From NCBI RefSeq assembly GCF_932294415.1, contig NC_065541.1, forward strand, positions 53,236,290 to 53,300,289: 64,000 nucleotides of DNA. The letters run 5' to 3'. The stretch's first letter is position 1. Each line of letters starts with the position of its first letter. The notes under the pieces are model-generated. The model saw only the letters and a program-made list of their open reading frames with translations, was not told the origin of the DNA and searched no databases. Made by a program: the position numbers and the translations under genes. This document shows, one piece after another, positions 5,448 to 63,099 of the stretch. Origin of the DNA: Quercus robur. Its lineage: Eukaryota; Streptophyta; Magnoliopsida; Fagales; Fagaceae.

Positions 5448-6335
5448 TTTAATCTAAAAAACTAAACAACCAATCAAACACGCATAGACCCATCAATTTT
5501 TGAAATACAAATAGTCAAAGAATCACAACTTCATACACAAAGTCAAATTAACAAACTAACATACACCAAGTCATAGAGTCAAAGAATCACAAATTGATCT
5601 ATAGGTGCTAATATAGAGAGAATCATAAACTAAGCCAAATTGTTGTACCAAGCACAAAATAAAATGAAATGAGAATCCAAACTTTAAGTCTCTCTCTAGC
5701 TCTCAAATTCCCCGATCAACCAAATGTGGGATATAAACCCATTAACTTAGTCCACATATAAGTACAACCAGATAGAATTAAACTCAATCAGAAATTCCAA
5801 TCCTGTCACATTCCAAACTCTTACTACTTCATCACAAAACTCATCAGAATATCGCAATTAAGGTCTAATGCAATAACCAAAGACAACCCACTAAAGGGGA
5901 GTTCAGTCCACAATTCAAATCAATCATACCCATATACACAATTCAGCATAGAAAGGAGATAATTCTTGAAGTAGTAAGATGAATATGCGAAAACCTTGAA
6001 TCAATCCCACCTATTATAAGTGCCACTCTCATCAGTTTGAGGTGCAGCTTCTGGAGTTGAGGTTTGGGTAGGCACCCCAGTAGGTGTAACTGAAAACTTC
6101 TCTCAAATCTATAATTTCTATAACAGAAACTTTGAGAAGAAAAACAGAGAAAAGAAAGAAACACAGAGAGAGAAAAGAAGCTGAAAAATTCTTCAAGAAT
6201 TATCTCATTGAATACATTTCACAATACAATAACAATGGAGGCTACAACAACAAAATCGTGATGCTTTCAGTCCATTCATACACGATATGGTCAAGTTTGA
6301 TGTTCAAAATAAACCATATCTTCCAAATCAACAAT

Positions 6336-6350
6336 GCTTTCAGCAAAAAA
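6336..6350 (+). mobile_element. Ultra-short poly(A) insert with 11-bp duplication
   Basis: The insert GCTTTCAGC(A)6 sits between perfect copies of AAATCAACAAT (6325-6335 and 6351-6361), inside the hAT element. The bases before the tail lack the CTCTC signature of most others in the window. Confidence 0.55.
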
Positions 6351-6599
6351 AAATCAACAATCATCATCCACATTTTCAATTGACCCAAATCATCAACAAT
6401 CAACTTGCAAAAATTAACAAAGAAAAAAAAGATTAGGGGTAATAAAGTACCAGCTGCGACGGCGACGAGGGAGAGAGGCAGAGATGAGCGTGAGTGAGTG
6501 AGCTGCGATCTGGGCTGACTGCGATCTGGGCTGAACTGCGACGGCGAGAGAGTGATCGAACAAAGGTGGAACGACGGCGATCTGGGCTGAGCAAGAACG

Positions 6600-6755
6600 A
6601 CGGTGGAACAAGGGTGGAACGGCGGTAGGATTTTAGATTTAGGGCGATCTGGGCTGAGACAAAAGAAGGGTGGAACGGCGGTGGAACAAGGGAGGAACGG
6701 CGGTAGGATTTATGGTGGAACGGCGGTGGAACAAGGGAGGAACGGCGGCGACGAG
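6600..6755. repeat. GC-rich tandem repeat upstream of the hAT transposase
   Basis: Repeats of GGTGGAACGGCGGT and GGAACAAGGGAGGAACGG, with a 45-bp period between 6669 and 6714. GC content is far above the surrounding DNA. It lies between the element's right end and the transposase start, so it may be promoter or 5' leader of that gene; this is inferred from position only. Confidence 0.7.
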
Positions 6756-8029
6756 GGATAGAGGCAGAGACGAGAGAGTGAATGAGAGAAGTGAGGTTTC
6801 GTGTGATTGAGAGAGTGAGGGTTTCGGAGTGTTCTGGAGACTGGAGAGAGTGTTAAAAAAAAACAAAGGTTGAACGACGCCGTATAGGAAGGAAGGAAAA
6901 AAAAAAAAAAAAAAGGCTGGAACGACGTCGTTTTAAGGCAGAAGTAAGGCACTCGTTCAAACCGTTTGAACCGCTCACGGTTCACAGACCCGGACGGTCG
7001 GACCGCGGTTCAGACGGGTTCATGCTTTTTTCGCATAGAACGGTTCCTTACCTTAAACGGACCGTGAATCTGAACGGTTCCCGGGTTTTACGGTCGAACC
7101 GGACGGTCCGGTCCGGGTTTAACAACCTTGCTATAAGCCTATAATTGCTTTGTAGATTGTCTTTTATGGTTTCAAGTGTATGCTTTATAGATTGTCTTTT
7201 ATGCTTTATAGATTGTCTATTATGAACCAATATACATGTATATGTGCTTAACTGTGTAACCCATATTGATATATATTGGTTTATTGACTCACCTTTTATG
7301 TTAATAAAACCTTGAGTATTACCGAATTGAGGTATTGAATCTCAATTGGTGGGAGTTGTGTCAGATACATAAAGAATGATATTTAGTGCATTGACTCACT
7401 TTACAGTTGCATCCCAATACTGATATATATTAAGTGCTAAATAGGATTATTTTATAAAATAATTCCTATGGCCCTCCATTGTCGGTGAATAAAGGTTCTA
7501 TTAAATTAAAATTTTGTTGAAGCCAAAAGGATAGACTTGATTTTGGTTTAGTAGTTCCTCTTGTTTACTTCTTGGGAAGACAGGTGTGTGTATGACTGGT
7601 GGGAGTGTGGCTAAAATAGCAACATAATCATACTAGTACATATATCACACTCAAATAATGGTTTGCACTTATCCAAATAAACATGACCACTAAAATAGTG
7701 TAAAACATGTTTGATTTGGAGGCCAAAAGTAAATCGGGAGTCTTAGATAAATTAAATAAAATTAGAAACATGAGATGAAATTATGATGAATAGTATCTAT
7801 TTGCCTTTATATGGTGTGCACAGTATATTTCAAAAGAAATTATTGGAGCATGCAAGGTAAGGGTTCCCGATGCCCACTTCGAACTATTTATGAATATAAT
7901 TGTTATATTCTGTTCTGGGAATCTATGATATTTTGTTCTTGTGGGAGGTACCATTAGTTATTCAAAAACCTGAATATGATGGATATATGTATGTGAAAAT
8001 ATTATTTTATATTATTTTGCAGATTCATT

Positions 8030-11000
8030 ATGACCAATTTTAATCCCTTAGCTAAGATTTTGGATGAAAATCGATTGTTTGGACCAAACTATGTAGATTG
8101 GAAAAGGAACCTAATCATTGTTCTCATTGCTGATAAGATAGCTCATGTCCTTAATATTGAGGCACCAAAACTTGCTTTAGCTGATGCCATTAAGGCGCAA
8201 AGAGATGCATTTAATAAGTGGCATGAGGCTGATGAAATGGATAAATGCTACATAATGGCCTCTATGACCAATGTGTTGCAAAAACAATGCCAAAGCCTAG
8301 TTACAGCACAAGATATGATGCTGCACCTCAAAGAGATGTTTGGAGAACAAAGCAGAAGTGCACGACAAATTGCTATGAAAAATCTCATGTCCACCAAAAT
8401 GGTGGAAGGAACTCCAGTTCGGGAACATGTCCTGAAGATGATTTCTTTCATCAATGAACTGGATATGCTTGGTGCAGAAATTGATAGTGAGACCTAAGTT
8501 GATGCAATCCTAGCATCTTTACATGATTCTTTTAATCAGTTTATCATGAACTATAACATGAATAAGATAGTAATGACATTGTCAGAGCTGCTCAATATGT
8601 TGAAAGCATTTGAGGATCTCATCAAGAAAGAAAAGCCTACTGTAATGTTGGCTGAAAAATCTGATACTTCTCTTAAGTTGAAGCCTAAGGGTAAGAACTT
8701 TAAGAGAAAAGGGTCTCAATCATTCAATAAGGCTCAAGGTGACAAAGTGAATAAGGACACTGAGAAAAAGAAAGCAAAAGGAAATTGTTTCCATTGCGGT
8801 AAGCCTGGTCGTTGGAAGAGAAACTGTCGCCATTATTTGGCTTCTCTGAAGAATGACAAACCTGCAGAAGGTATGTCTAATTTGCTCGTTATTGAAACAA
8901 ATTTAATGGATGGTCCATTTGATTCTTGGTGTGTAGATTCTGGTACAATCTCACACATTTGCAATGTGTTGCAGGGGTTCAAGGAGACCCGAAGGCTAAA
9001 TGAAGGGGAGGTGATCCTAAAGATGGGGACTGGTGCAACTGTTGCTGCCACTGCCATTGGAACCTTTTATTTAGAATTATCTTCTAGTAGAACTCTTGTT
9101 TTAGAAGATTGCTTATATGTGCCAGAAGTGCGAAGAAATTTTGTTTCAGTTTCAAAACTTAGTTGTTCAGGATATTCATTTCTTTTTACTTCTAAACTTG
9201 TTGTTAAGTTTAATAATAAATTTGTAACTTCTGGCATTTTACAAGATGGTCTTTATTTTTTGAGTTCTATTGATAATTCTATTAATTGTGTTGAGAATGA
9301 TATTGCTACCAGTGTGTTATCTCTTAAAAGAAAAAGAGATGTTAATCCTAACTATTTGTGGCACTTAAGGCTTGGTCATATCAATATTGACCGAATCAAT
9401 AGATTGGTAAGGGATGGGCCATTGAATCTTTTGAAGGTAGAACCTTATCCAATTTGTGAGACTTGCTTACAAGGGAAAATGACTAAAAGTCCCTTTACAA
9501 GAAAGGGAGCTAAAGCCATTGATGTATTAGGATTAATACACACTGATGTTTGTGGTCCTATGAATCACATGGCAAGAGGTGGTTTCTATTACTTCATTAC
9601 TTTTATTGATGATTATTCTAGGTATGGTTATTTGTACCTAATGAAACATAAATCTGAATCTTTTGAAAAGTTCAAAGAATTTCGTAATGAGGTTGAGAAA
9701 CAAGCTGGAAAATGCATAAAAGTTCTTCGCTCTGATAGATGAGGAGAATACCTCTTGGATCAATTTAAGGAATATCTAAAAGAAAATGGGATTATTTCTC
9801 AATTGACTCCCCCTGCCACACCTCAACATAATGGTGTAGCTGAAAGAAGAAATAGAACCTTATTAGATATGATTCGTTCTATGATGAGCATGTCAGAGTT
9901 GCCAATTTCATTTTGGGGTTATGCTTTGGAGACTGCTATTTATTTATTAAATAGAGTCCCTACCAAATCAGTTTCTAATACCCCATATGAGTTATGGACT
10001 GGTAAGAAACCAAGTCTAAATCACTTAAAGATATGGGGTTGTCCAGCACATGTTAGAAAGTCTAATATGGATAAGCTAGGACGTAGGAGTGATAAATGTT
10101 TATTTGTTGGCTATCCCAAGATGTCTACTAGTTTCTATTTTTACATTCCTAGTGAGCAAAAAGTGTTTGTGAGCAGGAATGCTATTTTTCTTGAGGAAGA
10201 TTATAGCTTAAATGAAAGTAGAGTAAAAGTTTCTCTTGATGAACAAACTGATAACCCAATGGCTGAGTTGAATGAGAATAATGAGGAGCAAATAATAGTG
10301 CCTACTAAACCAAATAAAATACAAGAGACTCGACGTAGTAAAATGACTATCAGGCCTCTAGTTAGACTCAATTTGTTAAATGAGATTTATCTAATGGAGT
10401 CAAAGGAGCATGATAATGATCCTTTTACTTATCAAGAAGCAATGACTGATAAGGACGTTAAGAATTGGAAAAGGGCCATGGAATCAGAGATGGACTCAAT
10501 GTATACCAACCAGGTCTGGACCTTAGTAGACAAACCAGAAGGTATTAAGCCTATTGGTTGTAAATGGGTCTACAAAAGGAAGATAGAACCTAATGGTAAG
10601 GTGGAGACCTATAAAGCTAAGCTAGTGGCAAAAGGGTATAATCAAAAGGCTGGAATTGATTATGAGGAAACTTTTTCGCCAGTAGCCATACTAAAGTCCA
10701 TAAGGATTCTATTGTCAATTGCTGCACATTATGATTATGAGATATGGCAAATGGATGTTAAAACAGCTTTCTTGAATGGACACATTCAAGAAGAAATTTT
10801 TATGGACCAACCAAAAGGTTTCATATCTCATGGTCAAGAATCAAAAGTGTGCAAGTTGATGAGATCTATATACGGCCTAAAGCAAGCATCACGCAGTTGG
10901 AACATCCGTTTTGATGAGGCAATCTAATCGTTTGGTTTCTCACAAAATATGGATGAACCTTGTGTTTACAAAAAGGTTAGTGGGAGCACTATTACATTTT

Positions 11001-11933
11001 TAGTTCTTTATGTAGATGACATACTACTCGTTGGCAATGATGTAGGAGCAATGTCATCTATAAAAGTATGGTTATCTAGTCACTTTGCAATGAAAGATCT
11101 TGGTGAAGCGTCCTATATACTCGGAATTAAATTGTTTAGAGATCGAAAGAAAAGGTTATTGGGACTTTCACAAGTCAATTATATTGACAAGATATTGGCT
11201 AGGTTTAGCATGCAAGATTCCAAGAAAGGATTTTCACCTTTTAGACATGGAGTTCATCTCTCTAATCAAATGTGTCCTAAAACACAAGAAGAGAGAGAGA
11301 AAATGAGAAATTGTCCTTATGCTTCGGCTATAGGAAGTCTCATGTACGCAATACTTTGCGCTAGGCCAGACATTTGTTATGCAGTGAGCATTGTGAGTAG
11401 ATATCAATCCAATCCAGGTTCTGAGCATTAGACAGCAATGAAACATATCCTCAAATATTTAAATAGGACCAAACATTATTTCTTGATGTTTGGTGGTGAG
11501 GATTTGACTATCCAAGGATATACAGATTCTGATTTTCAATCTGATATTGATGATAGAAAATCAATTTCTGGATTTGTGTTCACTCTTGGCAGAGTATATA
11601 GCTACAAGTGAAGCTGCAAAGAAAGCTATGTGGATTTGCAAGTTCATTCAAGAACTTGAAGCTATTCCTTCTATTGAGTCACCCATTACTATCTATTATG
11701 ACAATAGTGGGGCTGTTGCAAATGCAGTAGAACCAAGGGCTCATCAAAGGACAAAACATATTACACGTAAATATCACTTGATACGTGATATTATACAAAG
11801 AGATGATGTAGCAATAACAAAGATTGCCTCTGCCAATAATGTTGCAAATCCACTCACAAAGGCATTGTTTCAAAAGGTGTTTGAGAAACATTTGGAAGCA
11901 ATGGGTATTAAATATATGTATGATTGGTTTTGA
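8030..11933 (+). pseudogene. Copia gag-pol polyprotein, broken
   Basis: One frame covers 8030-11580, interrupted by TAA (8495-8497), TGA (9740-9742), TAA (10925-10927) and TAG (11429-11431). Order of domains: gag; a zinc knuckle near 8785-8830 (CFHC...NC); protease with VDSG near 8935; the GAG-pre-integrase HHCC region with WHLRLGH and CETC near 9360-9465; integrase with HTD and FIDD and a later AERRNR; reverse transcriptase with YVDD at 11009-11020; RNase H to 11933. The zinc-knuckle histidine is replaced by arginine (CGT). Near 11580-11595 the frame shifts and part of RNase H is missing, so the last 128 codons are in another frame. No protein from it should be functional. Confidence 0.93.
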
Positions 11934-12658: not shown

Positions 12659-13309
12659 AAGAGTTTTTTAAAAATATTTTGGAGTCCAATAGAAATTATG
12701 AAATCAAGAAATTAAGGGGTCACATAAGCTAGGGACATGACAATGATATTTATCTAGTCCTAGTGGCTTGTGGGAATATAGTATGGTAGAAGGACATAGA
12801 TATAAAATTGTATGAAATGGGACCTCATTTGTAATTCTCTAATCTTTAGGGGTCAATTGCAATGTGTTGATGGACATTATTGCAATATGTAGAAGTTCAA
12901 ATATTTTCTTGATATGGTTGAGAAAATTAAGAAATAATTTTAGAAAGAGTTTCAAGATAAGTCAATAACGTTCAAAAAGTTATTGATAAAATCCTACGGT
13001 TGAAGATTAGGATCCCTAAGGATCCCACGTCCAATCTCTATCTAGGGTTTTAGAAGTCTACTATAAAATAAGATTTTATAATATCATATTTAGTGGTTGG
13101 CCATCAGAACTACTGTGTGATACTGCAGTCTTCTGAAAACTCAAAAGAAATAGAGAGAGAGACACATGAATACCTTGGGAGGCAACACACTTGGGTTGCT
13201 AAGAGAGGTGCGCAATTTTGTTCTATTTAGAATCCATGGTTGTGTGGTACAACGATCTTTAAATGAAAATATGATTTTTTGTTTTATATTACTTCCACAA
13301 AAGTTTTCA
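11949..13309 (+). repeat. 3' LTR of the first Copia element
   Basis: The 1361-bp repeat runs from TGTTAGAATTATG to AAGTTTTCA. Its last 479 bases pair with 1-477. A pure TA run lies at about 12625-12655. Its size puts it among the long-LTR Copia elements. Confidence 0.92.
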
Positions 13310-29890: not shown

Positions 29891-30955
29891 AATTTGTGAC
29901 TTCACTTCTATTTAAAACATTAATAAAATGGAAAAAAGTAAAAAAAAAATGATTTATTAAATTTTACATTTCATATAGGATTATTCAAAAATCAATTTTA
30001 AAAAGGATAGAAAGAGACATCCCTATTTAGAAAAATAAATGTTTGCTTAGAGTAAGAAAGTGATTGCCAAAAAATTAAAATGGATTATATAGGTGAAATA
30101 CAAATTTTTTTCAATCTTTTTTTTCTCACTATTTGTTAGTGCTCAAAATAATGGAAATTAATAATAAAAATGGACATGGGGCTTCAAAATGAAACAATTT
30201 TAAAAATTTAGAACGTTAATTGAGAAAATTAAGACCTGAAGACCTAATCTGAAATAAGATACAACGGTTAAACTTTTTATATGATTTTTTTGTGTGTAAA
30301 AATACACTTTACACCCTATAACTGCAATCAATTGTCATTAGTCCACCAAATTTAAAAATTGTCATTTCAGTTCAACTTTGATCAATTGTCATTTTAGTCC
30401 ACCAAGTTTATAAAACATCATTTGCCAAGTTCAAAAATTGTCAATTTTTTATTTATTTAAATAAAGTAATAAAATTATTTCTTAACGTTGAAAATGTGAA
30501 AAAAAAAAAAATTGTTTTAAGAGAGTTAACGAGACCATTTTGACAATAATAGATGGAAGAACTAAAATGACCATACCAACAAAGTTGATAAACTAAAATG
30601 ACAAATTTTTATATTAAACTAATTAAAATAACAATAGAAATTCTATGCATACAACAAAATTTCACAACGCCATTATTCTTATTGTAATATATTTCAATCT
30701 AACATTTTATTATTTTATTTTAACATATGAATATAAAAGATTCACACATCAACTGTTGTCACAATATTGCGAAAATATCAATTGGAACTACTGATAATTA
30801 TATAATTTTTTTCATTATTATTATTATTAGCGTTGATGTGGGTTTGTGCCTTTGTCATAAAAGAGGTCGTTGGTGAGAAACACGCGAGGACGCGGTTGGC
30901 TCGTGAAATTCAATTGAATAGAAACACAAGACAAGAGGGTAGGCTCTTCCACGAG
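29891..30955. other. Intergenic, degraded repeat content
   Basis: No gene. 30300-30620 repeats words such as ATTGTCATTTTAGTCCACCAA and, inverted, AACTAAAATGAC, which suggests a degraded foldback element. The Mutator-MITE-like opening TTCTATGCATACAACA occurs at 30641. Confidence 0.4.
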
Positions 30956-30969
30956 CGGGTATGTCTGAA

Positions 30970-30990
30970 TTTTTTTATTTTTTTGAGAAT
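30970..30990 (-). mobile_element. Ultra-short poly(A) insert, CTC type
   Basis: T7AT7GAGAAT (ATTCTC plus tail in the poly(A) sense) between CGGGTATGTCTGAA (30956-30969) and CGGGTATATCTGAA (30991-31004), one mismatch. Confidence 0.75.
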
Positions 30991-31004
30991 CGGGTATATC
31001 TGAA

Positions 31005-33348
31005 ATTAATGCACCGAAATTACGACTTTTTAAGGTATCAGAATATTATTATCCTATACAACTCTCTGACACCTCTCTCTCTCTCTAACATCTCTCTTTC
31101 ACTTTATTATTTGAGAAGAAGAAGAAAAATGGTTAACTTGGTGCTGAATTCAACAAAAATCTATGTCTTTTACGCAAGCGTAAGCAAAGCGGCACGCTGC
31201 ATGATAAGGCTTGACCCCCAATCAATCAAGCTCACATGTTGGCCATTAATTCTAGTTCACGTCAGTCCTAGTTTTGGTGAAATACATCAACCTCGAACAA
31301 ATTGTAATGGGCAACAGAACACTTTCGAGAACTATCAATAATGAGACTTGAGAGTATTGGCCCACTTCACACATCTTTTCAATATTAATCATTACTATGG
31401 AAAAAAAAAAAAAATTCACCCCCTTTCTAAGTTTCAGTGAGCGAAAAAGGCAACACGTTATTATAAAAACTAGCAATAAATGGATTCACTTCTATAATCA
31501 CAGAAGATTAGCACAATTGACTGCGGACCATGTCTTGTAAAAGCATATGAGTTATGACACTAGTTTGAATCTCTCCTCTCCAGCCCTTTGGAATCAAAAC
31601 TTACTTATAAGCAATTATGTATTCGATTATGTATTAATTTTCAAAACTAATATATACCTTTTTTTTTCTCAAAAAAAATATATATATACCTTTTTTTCTT
31701 TTTGGTTATAAGTTGGATTAGTTTCCCTTCAGTAATTAAATATACCTTGCAGGGCATAAAAAATTGGTGCTTGTTTGAGAAAGTTTACTTTTATTGACTT
31801 ATTGGACGTAAGGAATAAATTGAAAAGAGTACAATTGCACCCACAAAAAGTAAATCTTTACAAAATTATACATAAGTTAAATAATTTTTTTTTTAAATGA
31901 CAAATATGCTCTTAAGAAAAAAATACATTAAAATACTTTTTTTAAATCATAACAATGATCATAGAGAGAGATAATTCTTAGTTAAGTTATAGAATGTACC
32001 CTTAATTTATCCCTTTATCACATAAATCCCCCAAAAATTATAAAATTACAGTGAGTTGAACCTCACAGTTATTATTATTATTATTATTATTTGTTAACGT
32101 GGGTGTCCAAAGTTCTTTAAGAAAAAATTCCTTAAAAGTGGTTTCAAGATACTAACAATAAATTTTAAATTATAAACTTGCTCATTTTTAAGGAGTATAA
32201 AGTACTATTAGATTACAAGGCCAATTATATTTGAACAATAGAATTGAAGATTCAACATAATCGTATGAAATATTTTTAATTGGTAAAATATTCTTTTAAA
32301 GAAGCAACAAGTGTAGAGTGTAAAAAAAAAAAAAAACATCCTTTTTTAAGAGCAATGAATAAAATTGAGCAAGGAATATAATCTTCTTATAAAAAAGTGA
32401 ATGAAATTATTGCTTTATCTTGAGATGATACTTAACTTGATCAATATACCTCACTGAAAAACATTTTGATTAATCATGGATGATATAATTATAAGTCATC
32501 CTAGCTAGATTGTTCTTTTAAGAAATTATTTGTCAATGTTATCCATGAGGATTCCGCAAATGGCTAATCATCAAAATTTTCAATTAGCTACTTAGTTAGT
32601 TAAGGATTAAGAACATGTAAAAAATTTCACACATGACTTAATTCTTGAAATATATATTGAATTAGATAGCCAATTATATGGGCCAAAGAGATTAAAGCTA
32701 TCTCCTATGAATAACAAAGCTGTATTTCACAATAGGCATTGAATGAAAAAACAACCTAATTGCTCCTTAGTACACTTCTTTCTCTCTTAATACTTTTTTG
32801 GGGGTGACTATCTCGAATATAGTCAAATATCATGTAATTTCCATCCAATTTCATACACTTTTTATCCCTCTCATCAATTTGCATACAATTTTCATTCATC
32901 CCCACTCTCATATTATCTATTGTAGAGAAGGGATAAAACTATTCAAATCCTCTAAAAACAATACCCATTTCTATATCATATGTGATATATTTTACCAAGA
33001 GTTTAATTAGTAAGAGTTACGATTATATGAAAAAAAGATGTTACACTAGAAGTGCTAGGTAATTATGACTCAACAAAAGATAAGTTTATCATTGGCCACA
33101 CCTTCTCCCCTATCCATTTGCATTAATATGGACATACAAAAGGTCGAAAGCCATACCCACCTAAAAATTGTTGCTTACCAATAAGTAGGAAATAAGAGAT
33201 TTGAACACAAAAATTATTTCATGTAAGAACCAACTATCAGAAGACCTTAAGTGCTTACTAGTTTAGAAATTCATGTATCTTTAACTTTTTTTTTTTTTTT
33301 TTTGTTTTGTTTTTTACATTCAAACTCTTTAAGTATTTAACTATTTTC
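31005..33348. other. Intergenic, one doubtful first-exon-like stretch
   Basis: A CT-rich leader at 31070-31128 precedes an ATG in good context at 31131 and about 70 open codons of no recognised family. Otherwise AT-rich DNA with a TTA run at 32070-32090 and no supported gene. Confidence 0.4.
31668..31681 (+). mobile_element. Ultra-short poly(A) insert, CTC type
   Basis: CTC(A)8TAT between ATATATACC plus T9 (31650-31667) and ATATATACC plus T7 (31682-31697). The duplication is low-complexity, so its length is uncertain. Confidence 0.6.
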
Positions 33349-33359
33349 TTTGAATACAG

Positions 33360-33392: not shown

Positions 33393-33403
33393 TTTGAATA
33401 CAG

Positions 33404-33417: not shown

Positions 33418-33439
33418 AATTTGAATATGGTTTAATCTT

Positions 33440-37134: not shown

Positions 37135-37154
37135 TATTATTTTTTTGAGAAGAG
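37135..37154 (-). mobile_element. Ultra-short poly(A) insert, CTC type
   Basis: TATTAT7GAGAAGAG between perfect copies of TCATATTTATTAT (37122-37134 and 37155-37167). In the poly(A) sense it starts CTCTTCTC. Confidence 0.7.
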
Positions 37155-37359
37155 TCATATTTATTATCTAATTATCTATTGGGGGATATTTCTTGGACCT
37201 ATTCAATAAGCTTATCTTAAAATTTTAAAGCAAGCTTATCTTAAAAATTTAAAGCAAACTCAATCTGTAGCACCAAGCGCTTTAGCGCGTGACATGGTCT
37301 TTCCTGTTGCCATTGTTTTAAAAATTGTACTAATAAATAAGAGACATCACATAAAACTT

Positions 37360-37890: not shown

Positions 37891-39482
37891 TAAAAAAGAG
37901 AGCTAAAAAGTAGAAAACTTTATTATATGTGCAAATTGGACAAACCGTGGAAGCTTCTCTAATTTGTTAACTTCTATAAGTTCTAGGAAACTTAGCGGAA
38001 GCCCAATTTTGCAGATCTTTCTGTAGTAGAAATAATTAAGAATGCATGTGCTGTTTGAATGGATAATATAATGATTACTATTGCTTACCGACTCACATGC
38101 TCCACAAGCTGTATCGAGTTTCATGGCCATATTTATGTGAACAAGATTTTTCTTCTTAGAAAAAAATGATATGAGTACTCAATATTATTATGATATTACC
38201 TGAAGAATCTTTATTTTGACAAGTCATAAATGATAAAACTATATATATCATGGGTGCATTATTAAATGGCTAGTCTATTTCACTATGAAAGTGTGTCTGT
38301 ATGAGTCACATGACATCTAAAGTGCTTGCTGAAGTGTGGCCTATTTGTGGTTGTGTTATATATCTACTATAGGAACTGGGTTCTAGTGCAGTTTTCTTGG
38401 ATTCAAGTACACTCCATTTTAGTTTTTAGGTTTCAAATTGCATAACACTTTTATCTAAAGATTAGCTAAGTGTTGGTTCAACATGTACATTGAGAAGATC
38501 ATTTTGCAAAATTGCAAATCAATTAATCATAACAGAAAATCTTATTATACACTCACTATTGCACACTTTGAACACGCTCTATTTTAAGATCGTGTTTTTA
38601 AAACACGATTTTAGTTCATATGACAGTATTAGTATGTATACGAGAAGTGTGTAATAAAGAATATATGATTATCATTACTCTTATTGCCATAACGTGTGAA
38701 ACCCTTTTGAAATCTTTGCATATATTATCACATGAAATGTTTATTACAAATTTGTGTGTCATAAGTTTTAGCCATAATTTAGCCTACCCTACATTATGTA
38801 CCCTTTATGTATTACATTATATTTCCTGTTGGAATGATATATAGCATGACTATAGGGAAATGGTAATCGATCAATCTGCAAGACCACCTAGGACCACTCT
38901 ATCTCTTGGTACGTAGTTGCACACATGACATGTGCAACATGCTAATTTCTTGTTTTTGTTTTTTCAAGTGGTTGAATCAATTAAACATGAGGGTGGGTTC
39001 CTAAGTACGAACAAATTATTGGATTAAATCTTACCGGTGGGAGACCAATTGAAAGAGTTCGCTTTAAGTATAAAAATGTTTATTACTACAAGTTTTGCTA
39101 AAACATGCTTACAAACATCACAATGATTATGATTTATGTCACATAAGTAAAATAATAAAATAAATTATATATTATTAATTACTTTTTTTTGTCTTATATT
39201 TAAAAATTGACATAACAATTTGGAAGATAAATGTAACATAATAAAATTTATAATATTAATAAGTAACATCACTAATTTAAGTATACTATTGCCTTTTTGT
39301 TTTCATTTTTGTTTTGGTTAGGACCGTTAAGAGAATGATTGTGAAGGCTTGAGGGTATTTCTTTATTTATTTCCTTCTGGGTTGTTGATTGAGAAAGATG
39401 TTACAAAAAGGAGAGTTGGCACTTTAGTGTTTCTAATCTCTAACTTGGATCTGAATTTTACAACTGACCCAACATGGATTTG

Positions 39483-39912
39483 AGAAAAATTACACATTAC
39501 CACCTTAAAATTATACCCTCGATTACACTTTGTAGTGTAAAACTTTTGAATGCACATTTTGCATCGTAAACTATGATTTTTGTTAAATTTTACACAACGA
39601 CATCAAGTTTGTTGTTAACTTAGATGAAAATATATGACACTACCTGAAAAAACATAATTGTCCATCTTTTTAACCCTTTAAAAACAAAAGATAAATTACA
39701 TTTCACTACTTTAAACTATATTGATTACACATTGCACTCTAAACTTTGAATTTCCATTTAAGTTAATAGCAAACTTAATGTCGGGATGTAAAGTGTAAGA
39801 AGGACCATAGTTTATGGTGTAAAATGTACATTCAAAAAATTAAGAGTGCAGAGTATAATTTGTAATTTTTTGTATAGTTTAGAGTGATAAAGTATAATTT
39901 TTCCAAAGATTT
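39483..39912. mobile_element. Inverted-repeat (MITE-like) insertion specific to unit A
   Basis: Ends read inward GAAAAATTACACATTACCAC and GGAAAAATTATACTTTATCA, with inverted similarity continuing inward. The segment is missing from the equivalent position of units B and C. The flanking duplication was not resolved. Confidence 0.5.
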
Positions 39913-41343
39913 GGTTGGAAACCCATCAATATTCTTAAATCTTAAGTACATTGAAGGGCTTTTTGCTAAATATCCATATAAAGAGATTTTTAGATTCTTT
40001 ATCAAATTACAGGGTCGTGCTGGTAGGTAGTACCAAGAAAAACGTCAAATATATCCAACTAAGGGCCCATAGTCATTGGGCCAGAAAATATTAAGAGACA
40101 ATAATAAAGAACAAGTACATTCTTGACCCAACAAATAGAACATCTAATTATTATTATTTATAAGCAATGGCAACGCATATATACTCTCAAAGATACAAAG
40201 ATGATAAGTTGACAAGAGTCATGATCTGGGGCTATTCGCAATGTCTGCAACTTCATCAACTGTACTTGGCAAAGAATAATACAAGAAGCTTGCCTCATTA
40301 AAAAAATACTTCAAACCAAAATTAACTAAAGCTTATGTTGCAACCTCTTTTCTGAGCAGATTATACGTTTAAGGTTCTAAGCCCAATACCCATAGTCAAC
40401 CACTATCATGTTACCACTTAAATTAATATTTAATCTTCTAACTTATGGCCCAACCCATAGACAATTTTATGAGTGGTAGACTTGGTGGCCATCTCCTCTG
40501 ACTTTTCAAGAAAGCATCTTTCCCTTTGTAGCTAAAACCAAGTGTTAACCTTCACCTGGATAATTTCTCAACAAGTAATAAAATTAATTCTTTCACAACC
40601 TCTTCCCAACATAAAGAGTCTATTAAATCCCTTCAAATTTACTATCAAAAGTCATGATTTGTCAAGCCGACTAAAGGCATCTCTATTCTATAGAAACCAA
40701 ATCATACCTATTATAAAAGGGAAATTAAAGGGGACCAAAAAAGAAAGGCAAAACAAAGAATGATAATCAAAGAACATCTATCTATTTTGCCTCACTCACA
40801 TTTTCCCCTTCTTATTCTCATTCACTTAACTTATGAAAATATCCCATCAAGCATGCACCCATTAAATCTCACACTATCCCATCCCAACAAATTCTTCTTT
40901 TATTTTATCATATTATTATGTACAATATTTTACTTTCTTGGAGTTTCAATGAAAACTCCTACAAACCAAGTTTATGGTCCGACTGTCTTGAATGTTTTGC
41001 GGCATATTTCATCTTAGTGAAGCAAGGCAAGCCCACTTATTGGTCTCACTATGTGGGCTTGTTTGGCCCTCTAGGCTAAGAATTTGGCTTCACTGGCTTG
41101 AATGTGCTCCTGCATACTAGACTTTTCTGACTTTAACAACTTGATTATTAATTTGCAAAAAAATTGCTCAAGAGCCTATACACTGCAAAATGTCATGTTG
41201 AATGACTCATACAATGCTGCTAACTTCTTCACTATGTTTGCCATTATTTAACGCCACCCATTACAACAAAATACCTCGGCATGTTGCTACCAAATTTATC
41301 TTAAAAAAACAAAAAAAGCTTCCCACCATTGTTGAGATATTGC

Positions 41344-41352
41344 TTTTTTTTT

Positions 41353-41418: not shown

Positions 41419-41805
41419 AACAAACTACAAAATAAGTCTTAAGCATTATTATTATTTTTGGTAGAACAAGATTTTTCTTTTTAGAAAAAACAATTATGTG
41501 GATACTCATTATTATTATGATATTACCTGAATAATCTATATTTTACAGTATTATTAGAGGCCAACAAATGGCTAGTCTGTATGAGTTTCTAGTGTGCTTA
41601 ATTGCTGAACTGTGGCCTGTGGGCTATTTGTGATTGTGTAATATATCTACCATAGGAACTGGGTTCTAGTGCAGTTTTCTTGGATTCAAGTACACTCCAT
41701 TTAATTTTTAAATATCTCATATCTACTACGATAGTCCTTCGTGTGTTTTTTATTATTATTTTGGTTTCAAATTGTATAACAATTTTATCTAAAGATTAAC
41801 GGAGT

Positions 41806-41830
41806 ATTTTTTTTTTTTTTTTTTGAGGAA
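41806..41830 (-). mobile_element. Ultra-short poly(A) insert, verified by empty paralogous site
   Basis: AT18GAGGAA between AAAGATTAACGGAGT (41791-41805) and AAAGATTAACAGAGT (41831-41845). Unit C has AAAGATTAATAGAGTGTTGG once and unit A AAAGATTAGCTAAGTGTTGG once, with no insert and no second copy. Confidence 0.9.
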
Positions 41831-43143
41831 AAAGATTAACAGAGTGTTGGTTCAACATGTAGATCAAGAAGATCATCGTGCAAAACTGAAAATTAATTAT
41901 TCACAACGTTACATCCTTGCTAATTGCTATTGCACACTTTGTACACACTTTATTTTGAGATTGTGGGTTTAAAACATGATTTTAGTCTATGTGACAATAT
42001 ATGTACGGTGAATGTGTAATAAAGAGTGTGTGACTATCATTACTCTTGTCATAACGTGTGAAACCCTTTTGGAATCTTTGCATATATTAGCACAAAAAGT
42101 GTTTATTACACACTTAATTGTAAGTAAATACACACAAGTGTGTCATAAGTTTGAATGATAGAATTAACAATAGAGAAATGGTAGTCAATCTGCAAGACCA
42201 ACCAGGACCACTTTATCTTTTAGTAGTTGCACACAATACACATGACATGTGCAACATGCTAATCTCTTTTCATATTTTTTTTTTTTTTTTTTTTTTGTTA
42301 AAGTGATTGAACTAATTAAAACATGGGCGGTTTGTCAAGTGATTTGTTTTTTCCTAAGTACGAACAAATTTTTGGATTAAATCTTACCGGTGGGAGACCA
42401 ATTGAAAGAGTTCGGTTTATGTTTTTAAGTAAGAAAATGTTTATTACTACAAGTTTGACTAAAAGACGCTTACAAACATCACAATGCTTATGATTTGTGT
42501 GTCACATTAGTAAAATAATTAATAAATTTATTTATTAATTACTTTTTTTGTCTTATATTACTTTTTTTGTCTTATATTTAAAAATTGACATGTCAACTTG
42601 CAAGATAAATGTGATAAAATTTATAATATCCATAAGTAACATCACTAATTTAATATACTTTTCCCTTTTTCTTTTATTTTTTGTATTGGTTACTGGTTAG
42701 TCTGGTTTGGTGAATGATTGTGAAGGCTTGAAGGTATATTTTTTGAAGGGCTTCCTGCTAAATTTTAGATACTTTATCAAATTACAGGGTCTTGATGGTA
42801 GTACCAAGAAAAACGTCAAATATATCCAACTATGGGCCCATAGTCATTGGACTAGAAAAGATTTTTTTTTTTTTTGAGCACATTCTTTACCCAACAAATA
42901 GAACAACCTATTATTTATAAGCAACATTAGCAACGCATATTATATACTCTCAAAGAGACAAAGATGATAAGTTGACAATAGTCATAATCTCCAGTTGGGG
43001 GGCTATTCGCAATGTCTGCAACTTCATCAATAGTACTTGGCAAAGAACAAGACAAGTAGCTCGCTTCATTAAAATAAAAACTTGAAACCAAAAAGTAACT
43101 AACGCTTATGTTGGAATCTCTTTTCTCAGTAGATTATACATTA

Positions 43144-43816
43144 GGGTGCGTTTGTTTTGGGGGAAAATGATTTCAGGAAATCCCTGAAATCATTTTCCCC
43201 CAAACCTGCGTGTTTGGCAGCAACGGAAAATGAAATTTTTTGGAAAATCATTTCCTGTTGACCAAAATTTACTCCTTTGACCCGAAAATGATTTTACACT
43301 CTCATGTTCACTTCAAATCATTTCCAGAGAGAGAGAGAGAGAGAGACTTTGCCGGTGACCACAGACCGAGCTCCAGTCGGACGATCACACCGTGCTGATC
43401 GTCGATCGCAGCACCGCGCCGCTCGTCGATCGCGCCGCTCGTCGATCGCGCCGCTCGATCTCGTCACTCGATCTCGCCTCCACCGCGCGATCTCATCTTC
43501 TCCTCCGCCATGCGATCTCAATTTGACCGGATTTGATGAATTTTTTTGCTGGGTTTTGTTTCTTTTGTGAATGAGTGTGGAATTGATTCATTATCCGCAT
43601 GTTTACAGCTGAGGAAGTGTATGGAAAATTGGGTGGCTTGGCTATGTAAAGCATTTTCTGTAAAAATGTTTGAACGAACCAAAAACCGAAATTGATTTTC
43701 CGTAAAACGATTTCCGAGACAGCCAAACATCCTGAATACATTTTCCTTTTTCAGAAATTAGCATTTCCGGAAAATATGTATTTTTCGGAAAACATTTTAC
43801 GGGAACCAAACACACC
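43144..43816. mobile_element. PIF/Harbinger-like element, 673 bp, verified by empty site
   Basis: TTA at 43141-43143 and 43817-43819. Ends read inward GGGTGCGTTTGTTTTGGGGG and GGTGTGTTTGGTTCCCGTAA. Unit C at 52491-52510 reads AGATTATACATTAAGGTTCG and unit A at 40367-40385 is similar, so the empty site is known exactly. The interior has a GA run (43325-43346), then GATCG-rich DNA with three copies of CGCGCCGCTCGTCGATCG-like text (43414-43462). No transposase. Confidence 0.9.
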
Positions 43817-44638
43817 TTAAGGTTCAAAGCTCAATACTCAAAGTCAACCACAGACAAAACACATGGCTATTTGTAATAAGCGCGCATGAGCCCTGCCTAA
43901 ATTAATATTTAATGTTCTAACTTATGGCCTAGTCTATGGACAATTTTATGAGTGGAAGATTTGGTGGTTATCTCCTTTAACTTTTCAAGAAAGCATCTTT
44001 TCCTTTGTAGTTAAAATCAAGTTTAACTTTCACCTTAATAATTTTCCCAATTAAGTTATAAAGCTACGTCTTCCACAACCCTCTCCCCAACATAAAGAGT
44101 GCTCAAATTTACTATCAAAAATTATGATTTGTCAAGTGGACTAAAGGCATCTCTATTTTGTAGAAACCAAATTGTACCTATTATAAAAGGGAAATTAAAG
44201 GGGACCAAAAAAGAAAGGCAAAACATAAATGACAATCAAAGAACATCTATCTATCTTGCCTCATTTATATTTTCCCCTTCTTATTCTCATTCATTTAACT
44301 TATGAAAACATCCCATCAAGCATGCACCCATTAGATCTCACGCTATCCCTTCCAAACAAATTCTTCTTTTATTTTATCATATTATTGTGTAAAATATTTT
44401 ACTTTCCTAGAGTTTCAATGAAAACTACTACGAACTAAGTTTATGGCCTAACTGACTTGAATGTTCTATGTCATACTTCATCTTACTAAGTTGAAAGAGG
44501 ACTTGTGAGGCAAAGCACGCTCACTTATTGATTTTACTATGTGAGTATGTGGGCTTGTGAGGCATGTTTAGGCTAAGATTGACTTCACTGACTCGAATAT
44601 GCTCCTGCGTACTAGACTTTTATGACTTTAATTATTAA

Positions 44639-45465
44639 CTAGCTAAATTTCCGCACGATGTGCAGTGCAACTTATTATTAGTTTTCTCCAATATTTCAAT
44701 AAGTTTATTAAGAATCTTGTATATTAATTGGTTGGCACCTCAATTTCCAATAAAGATATTCATGATTCAGACTCCCCAACTATTGATGTATAAAAATATT
44801 TTGAATAAATTTCCTTGTAAAAAAATTGTAATATTTAGTTATTTTATAGACAAAATAGAAATCACACTATATATATGTGTGTTCGCAAATTGAAAATTGC
44901 ATGATATAGTGATTAATAGATAAGCATGTTTCATGCCTACTAAAAAAATGCATATATCCTTCAATTATTATTTTTTGTTACATTCTTGATTATGTTTTAC
45001 TAATTTTTTCCCCTTTTTGTTGGACATTGCTTCAATTGTTGCATGATATAGTGTTTCAATTGTTTCTCATATAGATCTTAGAAAAATTATATTAAAATTT
45101 CATTATACTATAATAAAATAAATATATTTATTCTATTACGCGCGCATGCACACACACACATATATATTACGTGTGACTGAAAGGAGTTAGGAAATTTAAA
45201 AAACTAAGATTTATTTTAGTGAATTCACAAATATTTAATTTTTATGGATTTTGTATCAATTGTTGTCAATGCAACTAAACATGAATAAAAAAGTCATATT
45301 CTAAATTTATTATTATTATTCCAACTAAAAATTATCTTATATAGAGTTTATAAAAAAAAAATCATATAAATGCATTTAATATAAATAATTAATGCACAAC
45401 TATAGATAATTAATATATGCATTTACTCTATTGGCTAATTTAAAAAACTAATACTTTGATATAAA
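44639..45465 (-). mobile_element. Helitron 3' part, 5' end uncertain, in unit B
   Basis: On the minus strand it ends with hairpin CTGCACATCGTGCGG, AAATTTAG and CTAG at 44639, before a host T, as a Helitron 3' end should. The other boundary cannot be fixed: where unit B resumes, about 95 bp present in A and C are missing, so a deletion removed host DNA and probably the 5' TC end. The interior is AT-rich and noncoding. Confidence 0.6.
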
Positions 45466-45560
45466 TGACCCATCACAACAAAATACCTTGGCATGTTGCT
45501 ACCAAATTCTTCTATAATTTTTTTTTTTTTAAAAGCTTCCCACCATGGTTAAGATATTGC

Positions 45561-45591
<31 letters not shown>

Positions 45592-45825
45592 GTAAAAGCA
45601 ACCCCCCAACAAACTACAAAATTAAGTCTTAAGAATATATTTTTTTTTTTGGGTAGAACAAGATTTTTCTTTTTAGAAAAAACAATTATGTGGATACTCA
45701 TTATTATTATTATGATATTATTTGAATAATATTTATTTTACAATATTATTAAAGGCCAACAACTGGCTAGTCTGTATGAGTTTCTGGTGTGCTTGCAAAA
45801 CTGTGGCCTGTGGGCTATCTATGAT

Positions 45826-45946: not shown

Positions 45947-46268
45947 TCCGGTATTGAATGAATACTGAGATTGATGAATGAAAGCTTGATTACAATTAAG
46001 TTTGTTATGTACAATATATATACCATCAAGAAAGCATAGAAAAATATCTTAGAAAATATCTCACAAACTGAGACTCACTCTAACAAAACAATAACTAACT
46101 CCCACACGTGCACACTTATAAACAATTAGCCAAGCCTGATTTACATAACATAAATGACATGCGTTTTATTTACTCTTCTTAGACGACACTGGTTTTGGTG
46201 TTACTGTTGGAATTGTAGTTGCTTCATCTGTGTCATGAAGCTCTTCAATTTTACAGCTTGAGCTTTCA
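45826..46268 (-). repeat. 3' LTR of the second Copia element, with GA expansion
   Basis: 443 bp. It contains about 42 GA units (45859-45942) where the other LTR has only GAGACAGAGACAGAGACAG-like text, which accounts for the 76-bp length difference. The rest aligns with 50649-51015. Confidence 0.92.
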
Positions 46269-50648: not shown

Positions 50649-51015
50649 TGAAAGAACACAGAGGAAAACCAGAGAAAATAGAGAAAGTCAGAGACAGAGA
50701 CAGAGACAGAAATTTTGGTATTGAATGAAAGCTTGATTACAATTGAGTTTGTTATGTACAATATATATACCGTCAAGAAAGCATAGAGAAATATCTAAGA
50801 AAGTATCTCACAAACTGAGACTCACTCTAACAAAACAATAACTAACTCTTACACATGCACACGTATAAACACTAAGCCAAGTCTGATTTACATAACATAA
50901 ACGACATGCGTTTTATTTACTCTTCTTAGATGACATTGGTTTTGGTGTTACTATTGGAATTGTAGTTGCTTCATCTGTGTCATGAAACCCTTCAATTTTA
51001 CAGCTTGAGCTTTCA
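50649..51015 (-). repeat. 5' LTR of the second Copia element
   Basis: 367 bp, ends TGAAAG and GCTTTCA in plus-strand order; pairs with 45826-46268. Confidence 0.92.
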
Positions 51016-52954
51016 ATGATTGTGTAATATATCTACCATAGGAATTGGGCTCTAGTGCAGTTTTCTTGGATTCAAGTACACTCCATTTAGTTTTTAAATA
51101 TCTCATTTCTAATACGATGGTCCTTCGTGTGTTTTTATTGTTTGGTTTCAAATTGTATAACAATTTTATCTAAAGATTAATAGAGTGTTGGTTCAACATG
51201 TAGATCAAGAAGATTATCGTGCAAAACTGAAAATTAATTATTCACAACGAAAAATCTTATTACATCCTTGCTAATTGCTATTGCACACTTTGTACCCACT
51301 TCATTTTGATATCGTGTTTTTAAAACACAATTTTAGTCTATGTGACAATGTGTGTACAATGAATGTGTAATAAAGAATGTGTAACTATCATTACTCTTTC
51401 CATTATGTGTGAAACCCTTCTGAAATCTTTGCACATATCAGCACAAGAAGTGTTTATTACACACTTAATTGTGAGTAAGTACACACAAGTGTGTCATAAG
51501 TTTGAATGATAGAATTACCTATAGGGAAATGGTAGTCAATATGCAAGACCACCCAGGACCATTCTATCTTTAGTAGTTGCACACAATACACATGACATGT
51601 GCAACATGCTAATTTCTTGATTTTTGTTGTTTCTTGTTAAAGTGATTCATTGAACTAATTTAAACAAGGGCGGTTTGTCAAGTGGTTTGTTTTTTCCTAA
51701 GTACGAACAAATTTTTGGATTAAATCTTACCAATGGAAGGCCAATTGAAAGAGTTCGCTTTATGTTTTTAAGTAAGAAAATGTTTATTACTACAAGTTTT
51801 GCTAAAAGACGCTTACAAACATCACAATGATTATGATTTGTGTGTCACATTAGTAAAATAATAAATAAATTTATTTATTAATTACTTTTTTGTCTTATAT
51901 TTAAAAATTGACACATCAACTTGCAAGATAAATGTGATAAAATTTATGATATCCATAAGTAACATCACTAATTTAATATACATTTCTCTTTTTCTTTTAT
52001 TTTTTGTATTGGTTACTGGTTAGGTGAATGATTGTGAAGGCTTGAAGGTATATTTTTTGAAGGGCTTCCTGCTAAATATCCATAAAAAGAGATTTTTAGA
52101 TACTTTATCAAATTACAGGGTCTTGCTGGTAGTACCAAGAAAAACGTCAAATATATCCAACTAAGGACCCATAGTCATTGGACCAGAAAAGATTTTTTTT
52201 TTTTTTTTTGAGCACATTCTTGACCCAACAGATAGAACAACCAATTATTTATAAGCAACATGCAATGCATATTATATTATCATATACTCTCAAAGAGACA
52301 AAGATGATAAGTTGACAATAGTCATGATCTCCAGTTGGGGGCTATTCGCAATGTCTGCAACTTCATCAATAGTACTTGGCAAAGAACAAGACAAGTGGCT
52401 CGCTTAATTTATAAAATAAAAATAAAATAAAATAAAATAAAACTTGAAACCAAAATTAACTAACGCTTATGTTGGAGCCTCTTTTCTCAGCAGATTATAC
52501 ATTAAGGTTCGAAGTCCAATACTCAGAATCAACCACAGACAACCCACGTGGCTATTTGTAATAAGGGCGTGAGCCCTGCCTAAATTAATATTTAATGTTC
52601 TAACTTATGGCCCAACCTATGGACAATTTTATGAGTAGAAAACTTGGTGGTCATCTCCTTTAACTTTTCGAGAAAGTATCTCTCCCTTTGTAGTTAAAAT
52701 CAAGTGTAACCTTCACCTTAATAATTTCTCAACCAAGTAATAAAGCCAAGTTTTCCACAACCCTCTCCCGAACATAAAGAGTGCTTTGAACCCCTTCGAA
52801 TTTACTATCAAGTGATTTGTCGAATGGACTAAAGACATCTCTATTTTGTAGAAACCAAATCGTACCTATTATAAAAGGGAAATTAAAGGGGACCAAAAAA
52901 GAAAGGCAAAACATAAATGGCAATCAAAGAATACCTATCTATATTGCCTCATTC

Positions 52955-52967
52955 TCTCTAAAAAAAA
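52955..52967 (+). mobile_element. Ultra-short poly(A) insert, verified by empty paralogous site
   Basis: TCTCT(A)8 between ATCTATATTGCCTCATTC (52937-52954) and ATCAATCTTGCCTCATTC (52968-52985). Unit B has ATCTATCTTGCCTCATTT once, from which each copy differs at one internal base, so an 18-bp duplication followed by independent point changes is the simplest history. Confidence 0.9.
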
Positions 52968-53349
52968 ATCAATCTTGCCTCATTCACATTTTCCCCTTCT
53001 TATTCTCATTCACTTAACTTATATGAAAACATTCCATCAAGCATGCACCCATTAGATCTCACATTATCCATTCCAAACAAATTCTTCTTTTATTTTATCA
53101 TATTACTATGTACAATATTTTACTTTCCCCGAGTTTCAACGAAAACTATTATGAACCAAGTTCATGGTCTGACTGATTCGGATGTTCTTCTACGACGTAC
53201 TTCATCTTACCAAGTTGAATGAGGACTTGTGAGGCAAAGCATGCACACCCACTTATTGGTTTCACTATGTGGGCTTGTGAGGTGTGTTTAGGCTAAGATT
53301 GACTTCACTGACTCGAATGTGCTCTGCATATACTAGACTTTTATGATTT

Positions 53350-53384
53350 TTTTTTTTTTTTTTTAAGAGTTTCAACCTATGGCA
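53350..53384 (-). mobile_element. Short poly(A) insert with longer body, AACTCTT type
   Basis: T15 followed by AAGAGTTTCAACCTATGGCA, between TTATGATTT (53341-53349) and TTATAACTT (53385-53393). Unit B has TTATGACTT once without the insert. In the poly(A) sense the body is 20 bases ending AACTCTT, which may show more of the source RNA's 3' end. Confidence 0.65.
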
Positions 53385-53665
53385 TTATAACTTCAATTAT
53401 TAATTGGCAAAAACTTGCTCAAGAGCCTATACACTGCAAAATGCCACGCTGAATGACTCATACGATTCTGCTAACTTCTTCATTATGTTTGCCAGTTGCC
53501 ACTATTTAATGCCACCCACTACGACGAAATACCTCGGCATGTCGCTACCAAATTCTTCTTTAAAAAAAAAGCTTCCCACCATTGTTGAGCTTTATATATA
53601 TTGCTTTTTTATTGTAAAAGTAACCCCCAACAAACTATAAAATAAACCTTAAACATTATTATTTT

Positions 53666-55040: not shown

Positions 55041-55146
55041 AGTTTTGTCATTATTGCAGATACAAGCTTTAAAGATAAGGTAGAAGCCAGATGTTTAATA
55101 TGCAAAAGAAGTGTGTTTTACAATTGGTTCAAGATAAGGAACACCT

Positions 55147-55163
55147 GTTTCTCAAAAAAGAAA
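55147..55163 (+). mobile_element. Ultra-short poly(A) insert, CTC type, first of two at one site
   Basis: GTTTCTC(A)6GAAA between AAGATAAGGAACACCT copies (55131-55146 and 55164-55179), perfect 16 bp. Confidence 0.8.
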
Positions 55164-55179
55164 AAGATAAGGAACACCT

Positions 55180-55193
55180 TTTTTTTTAATACC
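55180..55193 (-). mobile_element. Ultra-short poly(A) insert, second at the same site
   Basis: T8AATACC between AAGATAAGGAACACCT (55164-55179) and AAGATAAGGAACACTT (55194-55209), one mismatch. Its orientation is opposite to the insert at 55147. Confidence 0.75.
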
Positions 55194-55271
55194 AAGATAA
55201 GGAACACTTGCTTAAGTAGCCATTCAGAGTGTTTCATCGAGCTCATCTGGCAAGAGGACCTTTTTCCAGGG

Positions 55272-56982: not shown

Positions 56983-56987
56983 GGTAC

Positions 56988-62625: not shown

Positions 62626-62710
62626 TTATCTATGCATATTTCGTGGCAGGTGATTCTAACAGAAAACACTTTAAAAGAACAAACTTTAGGTTATTAACAA
62701 TAAAAGTTGA

Positions 62711-62733
62711 AACTCTCTCTTAAAAAAAAAAAA
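62711..62733 (+). mobile_element. Ultra-short poly(A) insert, CTCTC type
   Basis: AACTCTCTCTT(A)12 between perfect copies of AACAATAAAAGTTGA (62696-62710 and 62734-62748), 15 bp. Confidence 0.85.
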
Positions 62734-63005
62734 AAACAATAAAAGTTGATTCCTTTGGAAAACTGATTTAATAATTATTTAACATGCATTGACAATTTCA
62801 AAGGAAGACCACAGTTGGTTGACAATCAATTGTTTAGTTTGTTTAAAATTAAATAAAATCCTCAAATGATTAAACATATTAGATATAGATCAAATTCAAG
62901 ATTGGTGGGTGAATTTATTAAGTACTATTAAACTCAATAAACTAAGCATAATCTATGTTTAGTTGTTTACTAATACTTATCCACAATCACAATACTGCAT
63001 TAATA

Positions 63006-63022
63006 CCTTATCAAAAAAAGAT
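63006..63022 (+). mobile_element. Ultra-short poly(A) insert
   Basis: CCTTATC(A)7GAT between perfect copies of TGCATTAATA (62996-63005 and 63023-63032). Confidence 0.6.
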
Positions 63023-63099
63023 TGCATTAATAATGAGTCCCCAGAATAAAAAGGCAAAAGCAAAGCAACCAATTAAAAAATAAAAAAATAAAAAAAAAA

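Follow-up and report, generated by a model that had tools for sequence, protein, structure and literature searches.

Short A-tailed insertions in the window

The DNA analysed here (the window) is a 64-kb stretch of the oak Quercus robur, C37:53236290-53300289 of a 786-Mb assembly, with 33% GC. It is plant nuclear DNA, containing copia-like open reading frames (ORFs) and a PMT exon with angiosperm methyltransferases as its named protein-search hits. Scattered through it are insertions that consist of an A-tract and a preceding body of a few nucleotides, mostly ending in CTC, between the two copies of a target-site duplication (TSD). These scars, called stubs when considered as a class, are probably (about 0.7) products of target-primed reverse transcription (TPRT) of the RNA of a tRNA-like short interspersed element (SINE), with copying often stopped in a linker between the tail and a hairpin.

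Tracts of at least six A were taken from both strands, and for each the best direct duplication was scored, with one copy at most 30 nt upstream and the other near the tract end; 18 bits served as the threshold for a strong duplication in the window. The A-tail stands at one end of the scars, the search itself being anchored on A-tracts. Curation left 18 scars, 13 with CTC before the tail:

6325-6361, plus strand: scar with TSD AAATCAACAAT, body GCTTTCAGC and A9, without CTC; 17.7 bits
18102-18148, plus strand: scar with body CCCTCTC and A10; 24.0 bits
27326-27388, minus strand: scar with body TCTC, A24 and a perfect 18-bp TSD; 29.7 bits
30953-31007, minus strand: scar with body ATTCTC and A7TA7; 21.9 bits
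31650-31697, plus strand: scar with body TTCTC and A8; 24.8 bits
33349-33427, minus strand: nested pair of scars in one target, with three target copies; TTTTACCCAC and A23 (checked by hand), CTCTCT and A8 (15.2 bits)
34584-34633, minus strand: scar with body TTTTAACC and A15, without CTC; 24.0 bits
34974-35022, minus strand: scar with body GATTCTC and A7TA5TA6; 26.8 bits
36474-36521, plus strand: scar with body TCTCTCC and A21; 21.2 bits
37122-37167, minus strand: scar with body CTCTTCTC and A7; 19.5 bits
37348-37390, minus strand: scar with body TTTCTC and A15; 20.2 bits
41791-41845, minus strand: scar (41807) with body TTCCTC and A18; two paralogous empty sites
52937-52985, plus strand: scar (52960) with body TCTCT and A9; two paralogous empty sites
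55131-55207: two scars of one target in opposite orientation, (GTTT)CTC and A6GA5 on the plus strand, GGTATT and A9 on the minus strand; 30.4 and 25.1 bits
59570-59625, plus strand: scar with body TTTTCTATT and A6GA5GA6, without CTC; 20.2 bits
62696-62749, plus strand: scar (62722) with body AACTCTCTCTT and A15, in which AACTCTCTC equals the terminal 9 nt of the SINE consensus; 24.4 bits

A sequence-only reading of the window had counted about 21 such scars, which is roughly right; two weak candidates (61522 and 63013, 16.3 bits each) stand beside the 18. It had also given 14 coordinates with a CTC-like junction, of which 12 score at least 18 bits; 33404, one half of the nested double, reaches 15.2 bits, and 53350 (6.7 bits) has no duplication and drops out. 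The scars beyond these coordinates are 6345 (17.7 bits), 33360, 34597, 55179 and 59591. Three of the 18 were added although under the threshold or filtered out, namely 6345, 33404 and 33360, the last of which a low-complexity filter had removed from bit scoring. Left uncounted were 31659 and 34616 (other-strand readings of loci already counted), 6897 (within a repeat-rich stretch), 17987, 35853 and 35908 (tandem arrays), and 14430 and 42562 (16-17 bits, unconvincing by eye). The scars at 30953-31007, 34974-35022 and 37122-37167 have TTCTC followed by exactly A7, T and A in common, which points to a single source copy whose tail was interrupted; a search of IMG/VR with TTCTCA7TA7 gave six loci, none with a flanking duplication by eye. 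The scars stacked at 33349-33427 and 55131-55207 look as if a tail with its duplication were a preferred new target.

Empty sites, target duplications and controls

One segment is present in the window in three diverged copies (38139-41352, 41464-45646 and 51017-53665; about 71-85% identical), the second and third of which are split by a copia-type element with long terminal repeats (LTRs; 45975-46268 and 50722-51015, 93.9% identical). Scar 41807 occurs only in the second copy and scar 52960 only in the third, and in each case the other two copies have a single target sequence and no tail. Since each has two paralogous empty sites, insertion is shown for both scars. The corresponding places, and a further insertion, are:

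38450-38465: paralog A, empty counterpart of scar 41791-41845; that in paralog C is at 51165-51183
40690-40900: paralogous segment in which scar 52937-52985 has one of its empty sites, with the second in 44160-44380
53347-53388, minus strand: insertion (53350) relative to both paralogs, without TSD, with a body of about 24 nt, ATAATGCCATAGGTTGAAACTCTT, and A18

The body of this last insertion comprises more of the 3' end of the SINE. At an equivalent spot in two of the paralogs stand GTGCTC-A14 (42862-42875) and GTGCTC-A17 (52193-52209), without duplication; the sequence of the third paralog differs there.

The TSDs of the scars measure 10-18 bp, and the duplication begins with A in 14 of 16 scars (33360 and 33404 left out). 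Because the tail itself consists of A's and biases simpler P values for an A-start, the number of leading A's was tested against a geometric null; its mean in these 16 scars is 1.63, the expectation 0.53 (P = 2e-4, or 0.014 at a local A content of 45%). The empty sites, the 10-18 bp duplications and the tendency to an A-start together support the scars as products of L1-type TPRT, as the sequence-only reading had proposed.

Among the 262 window tracts, 20 reach at least 18 bits, compared with a mean of 0.35 for swapped flanks (tandem arrays and double readings still included). Listed arrays were taken out before the counts by CTC, body length and random anchors, and the excess stays, so a tandem-repeat artefact is rejected. 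Of the 246 tracts then considered, 16 have a duplication and a body of 0-12 nt, as opposed to none in three rounds of swaps; for bodies of 13-30 nt there are four against none, two being other-strand readings and two lying in the repeat-rich stretch at 6.8-7.1 kb. A strong duplication with a body of at most 12 nt was found at 16 of 233 A-tracts, at 12 of 1500 random anchors and at one of 60 other simple repeats; flanking duplications are therefore commoner than in the controls, and CTC junctions are commoner beside duplicated tracts than beside the others, two points on which the earlier idea could have failed. CTC adjoins the tail in 12 of 18 duplicated tracts (a set that still contains 31659, 34616 and 6897) and in 13 of 233 tracts without duplication (P = 7e-10).

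Replication was sought in twenty 10-kb stretches along contigs C1 and C37 (200 kb, 634 tracts). There, 20 tracts reach at least 18 bits versus one in one swap control; by eye about 12 of the 20 are clean and the rest tandem or doubtful, and one stub with a 17-nt body is added. The 13 clean scars correspond to about 65 per Mb, and nine have CTC; scars are denser in the window (18 in 64 kb). CTC accompanies 8 of 26 tracts with duplication and 38 of 608 without (P = 2e-4), a weaker association than in the window, with tandem rows kept in.

A tRNA-like SINE as likely source

In the genome, CTCTCA14 occurs 1514 times and the reversed pattern 469 times. One of eight CTCTCA14 loci (L013) has a longer sequence upstream of its tail, the end of which is also present at 53350. 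This sequence is a repeat: a first look at the whole genome gave 4329 candidates, and identity is 91-100% in the 40 that were scored. Twenty of the 40 were fetched with flanks and aligned, these being the copies closest to L013 and no random draw. Their consensus is 152 nt long, starts with GTGGGTTCC and ends with GGTTGAAACTCTCTC followed by A(n), and 19 of the 20 copies have a TSD. In the 5' part, TAGCTCAACTGG and GGTTCAATCC resemble tRNA boxes A and B by eye; this part has a cloverleaf-like fold and ends in CCTACACCA. The element may be related to the Angio-domain SINE superfamily.

A tRNA-like SINE is the likely source of the CTC-type stubs, and we infer that its RNA was probably their template. 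Variant SINE ends equal variant stubs, namely ACTTTCTC-A and TTATCTC-A (at two of ten sites, the variant pattern, its spacer one base too long, having covered only 10 atypical sites); other variant ends are GAAACTTTCT-A (L057) and AATCTCT-A (L020). A compilation of 35 bodies from the window, the sample and a few genomic sites ranges from 4 to 11 nt with a mode of 6-7 nt; its upper edge was partly set by the search, mostly made with a 12-nt limit, and wider limits (in the window and at the 68 sites described below) gave few longer bodies. The compilation takes in only L008 and L011 among the stubs of those 68 sites, keeps four doubtful sample bodies and leaves out L025 1505 (17 nt), L023 5810 (2 nt), L028 9828 (doubtful) and L010 (12.0 bits). 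At least four terminal nt agree with one of 11 SINE linker variants in 20 of the 35 bodies, as compared with a mean of 6.8 (maximum 15) after shuffling, the bodies being very short.

How the SINE is truncated was followed at 68 CTCTC-A14 sites, the 8 initial loci and the next 60 in order on contig C1, stubs being accepted from 16 bits and longer bodies from 18 bits. They comprise 21 SINE copies, 19 stubs, 10 CT runs, four sites with a more distant duplication, one of which (L130) resembles the SINE, and 14 unclassified sites, some of which may be old stubs or short SINE pieces (by eye, L115 keeps about 15 nt). The 5' start lies at position 0 or 1 in 17 of the 21 SINE copies, which are full length, and at 18, 56, 71 and 84 in the other four. 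The body of the 19 duplication-flanked stubs is 3-9 nt long in 18 and 15 nt in one, and swapped flanks yield 0.15 stubs per 68 sites. Truncation thus looks bimodal, leaving either a stub or the full length. If stubs are treated as copies of the SINE, 14 of the 18 that are truncated in the first 48 sites keep at most 9 nt (P = 8e-13 against uniform truncation, in a post hoc test). The target duplications of the two classes resemble each other: the TSD averages 14.4 bp for stubs and 15.8 bp for full SINEs, with an initial A in 15 of 19 stubs and 16 of 19 SINEs. Because the query requires CTCTC-A14, this sample is silent on stubs without CTC.

That one dominant source RNA was copied for its last bases only, or that priming on the tail was followed by a fixed stop, as the sequence-only reading had offered, fits the SINE with this 3' end and the two size classes. 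The same reading knew of no named family of this kind and needs correcting on two points: the likely source, a tRNA-like SINE, belongs to an established type of element, which makes the stubs a truncation product and no independent family, and one source may not cover the five of 18 window bodies that lack CTC.

Two side observations concern targets met more than once. L114 and L020 (near 1193), on contig C1 near 22 Mb, have the target GTTTCATTTTCCTC in common and the bodies ATCTCTC and ATCTCT; the stub therefore probably lies within a duplicated stretch and might be dated. At L015 (near 2600-2770), nearly the same target sequence occurs twice, once with a SINE truncated at its 5' side to about 81 nt and once with an ultra-short stub. 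Microhomology at the junction is apparent at 62722 and L096 and by eye rare elsewhere.

Predicted fold and possible mechanism

In the predicted fold of the SINE consensus, a tRNA-like half is followed by a long 3' compound hairpin closed by AACU/GGUU, and 3' of the hairpin an unpaired linker of 11 nt, GAAACUCUCUC (that is, GAAACTCTCTC), leads to the tail. Copy L033 folds like the consensus. Both sides have changed at 6 of 47 pairs, versus 2.0 in shuffles, and the covariation score is 0.084, versus at most 0.050 for slid structures; the support for the fold is modest because the SINE copies are closely alike.

According to the proposed mechanism, L1-type machinery would nick the target and prime on the A-tail of the SINE RNA. 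The reverse transcriptase would copy the tail and usually only 4-9 further nt, the CTCTC end, before being arrested in the linker by the predicted hairpin just upstream, or by a protein on that hairpin; starting in the tail, it could copy at most 11 nt before reaching the hairpin. The short cDNA would then be joined to the other side of the target, producing the 10-18 bp duplication. That the hairpin or a bound protein is what stops reverse transcription in the linker is a tentative suggestion based on the modelled structure.

Alternative explanations

Chance, or replication slippage placing A-tracts between small tandem duplications, has in its favour that short duplications also exist away from A-tracts, as the random anchors indicate, and coincidence may account for individual weak sites. 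Applied to the entire class, this explanation is rejected, with a negligible probability left to it: the swapped-flank, random-anchor and simple-repeat controls and the paralogous empty sites stand against it, and slippage predicts neither the CTC nor duplications starting with A. Deletion of formerly full-length SINEs would leave the same duplications and the same 3' end, but a similar precise internal deletion would be needed many times with the 5' duplication left intact, and at both testable places the paralogs are empty sites with no SINE; deletion remnants are accordingly rejected as highly improbable. It seems unlikely, too, that the stubs derive from a separate very short RNA, such as a tail fragment cleaved between the SINE hairpin and the tail, with the reverse transcriptase running off its 5' end. 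The narrow range of body lengths and the gap between stubs and full-length copies would suit such a defined 5' end; the starts of the bodies, however, vary over several nt, and the RNA is hypothetical.

A broader alternative is that any polyadenylated RNA, whether mRNA or the RNA of a long interspersed element (LINE), leaves stubs and that the SINE is merely the commonest template. It draws on the absence of CTC from five of 18 window bodies and four of 13 clean sample bodies (about 30%); a single source may not account for all stubs, given the five in the window, and the non-CTC bodies are without explanation under the SINE origin. Against it stand the enrichment of CTC at duplicated sites and the ends of the LINEs themselves. 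LINE 3' ends were sought in 21 stretches downstream of zf-RVT matches, 14 being placed by alignment of relatives, five guessed from the first A-tail and two tailless. Before the A's these LINEs end in TTACTTATC (or TTACTTAT), TTACCTATC, GGTATC, CCAATC, GGTAAC or GGTG, with a few single ones, and no CTC end is found among the LINE 3' ends placed or guessed. Only two of the 35 bodies match the 3 terminal nt of five LINE ends, and none matches more, despite 11838 first-look zf-RVT candidates, so that a LINE 3' end is rejected as the stub source; we hold the broader alternative to be somewhat doubtful.

Besides the bodies without CTC, several observations weigh against the SINE origin with a stop in the linker. 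Bodies of 7 nt are too short for any single one to prove its origin, and many have 1-4 nt before TCTC that depart from the SINE consensus (GAT, CTCT, CC, CGA). No SINE copy with the tail TTCTC-A7-T of the three window scars was found. Bodies of 31-320 nt also show a modest excess over controls in the window (nine against 1.0 at 18 bits), four of the eight such cases listed falling in the repeats at 6.5-6.9 kb. ARAGORN called a tRNA at none of five SINE loci, and Rfam gave no match in the stretch around the SINE locus L033; an Rfam scan of the window was uninformative. The single copies L013 and L024 adopt a different fold in which the linker is partly paired, and with the structure slid by one column (+1) five pairs are still changed on both sides. 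Moreover, about 4 nt separate the end point of most stubs from the base of the predicted hairpin, a gap that could accommodate a bound protein or reflect cleavage of the template.

Relation to known retroposons

The SINE resembles the tRNA-derived plant SINEs with poly(A) tails in its box A- and B-like head, body, A-tail, TSDs and many copies; what differs here is that, at the 68 CTCTCA14 sites, the number of stubs of at most 9 nt comes close to that of SINE copies. Somatic LINE-1 insertions of the poly(A)-only type, present in human tumours, are likewise dominated by the tail and have a TSD, whereas the oak stubs are fixed in a plant assembly and have a recurrent SINE 3' end.

The retrocopies of human and chimpanzee include full-length, 5'-truncated and inverted insertions, with a TSD peak of 14-16 bp for full-length L1 (PMC2912911, in its available part). 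The 5'-truncated L1, Alu and mRNA copies among them are like the oak insertions in TPRT, TSDs and truncation on the 5' side; in oak, truncation is concentrated in the last 9 nt, and the available part of that paper describes no tail-only class. Plants have L1-clade LINEs and A-tailed SINEs, including, in maize and sorghum, L1/SINE pairs of the stringent type, which have a 3' hairpin, according to the portion available of PMC3747384. These pairs are similar in that their template RNA forms a hairpin close to its 3' end; they differ in that no CTC-type end is among the LINE ends placed or guessed here, the likeness of LINE and SINE having been judged on ends and not on hairpins. A plant SINE finder works, as far as the accessible text describes it, from box spacing, TSDs and copy-number profiles (PMC8825457) and by inference would miss stubs. 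The parts available of PMC9599045 and PMC7156093 contain nothing bearing on them, and a literature search with narrow terms returned nothing on a tail-stub class in plants, which speaks only weakly for its absence.

Neither TPRT nor SINEs nor 5' truncation are new; the stubs are regarded as products of a SINE with a strongly bimodal truncation. It is possible that the tail stub, and not the SINE, is a main product of SINE retroposition, arising by arrest in the linker at the hairpin or a protein on it, and that stubs form a hidden population, perhaps of tens of thousands (roughly extrapolated from the 13 clean stubs of the 200-kb sample on two contigs), which spreads A-tracts with duplicated targets over the genome. 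Insertions of 20-60 bp that consist of a tail and target copies are hard to mask by repeat libraries, and undercounts are therefore possible; SINE activity, the birth of A-tract microsatellites and short indel polymorphism in plants may all be affected. The two outcomes, stub and full length, amount to a natural assay of where LINE reverse transcriptases stop on a structured template. Stubs could also serve as presence/absence markers, with caution as to the assumption of a single hit, because two targets in the window were hit twice.

Other features of the window

Repeats at 1-477 and 12831-13309 are 96.5% identical and probably represent LTRs around the copia-like ORFs at 7997-11933. Between them, the ORF at 3894-5453 on the minus strand reads like a hAT transposase with a BED zinc finger, judged by reading alone. 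A compound tandem repeat with units of 43, 112 and 155 bp occupies 1847-2426.

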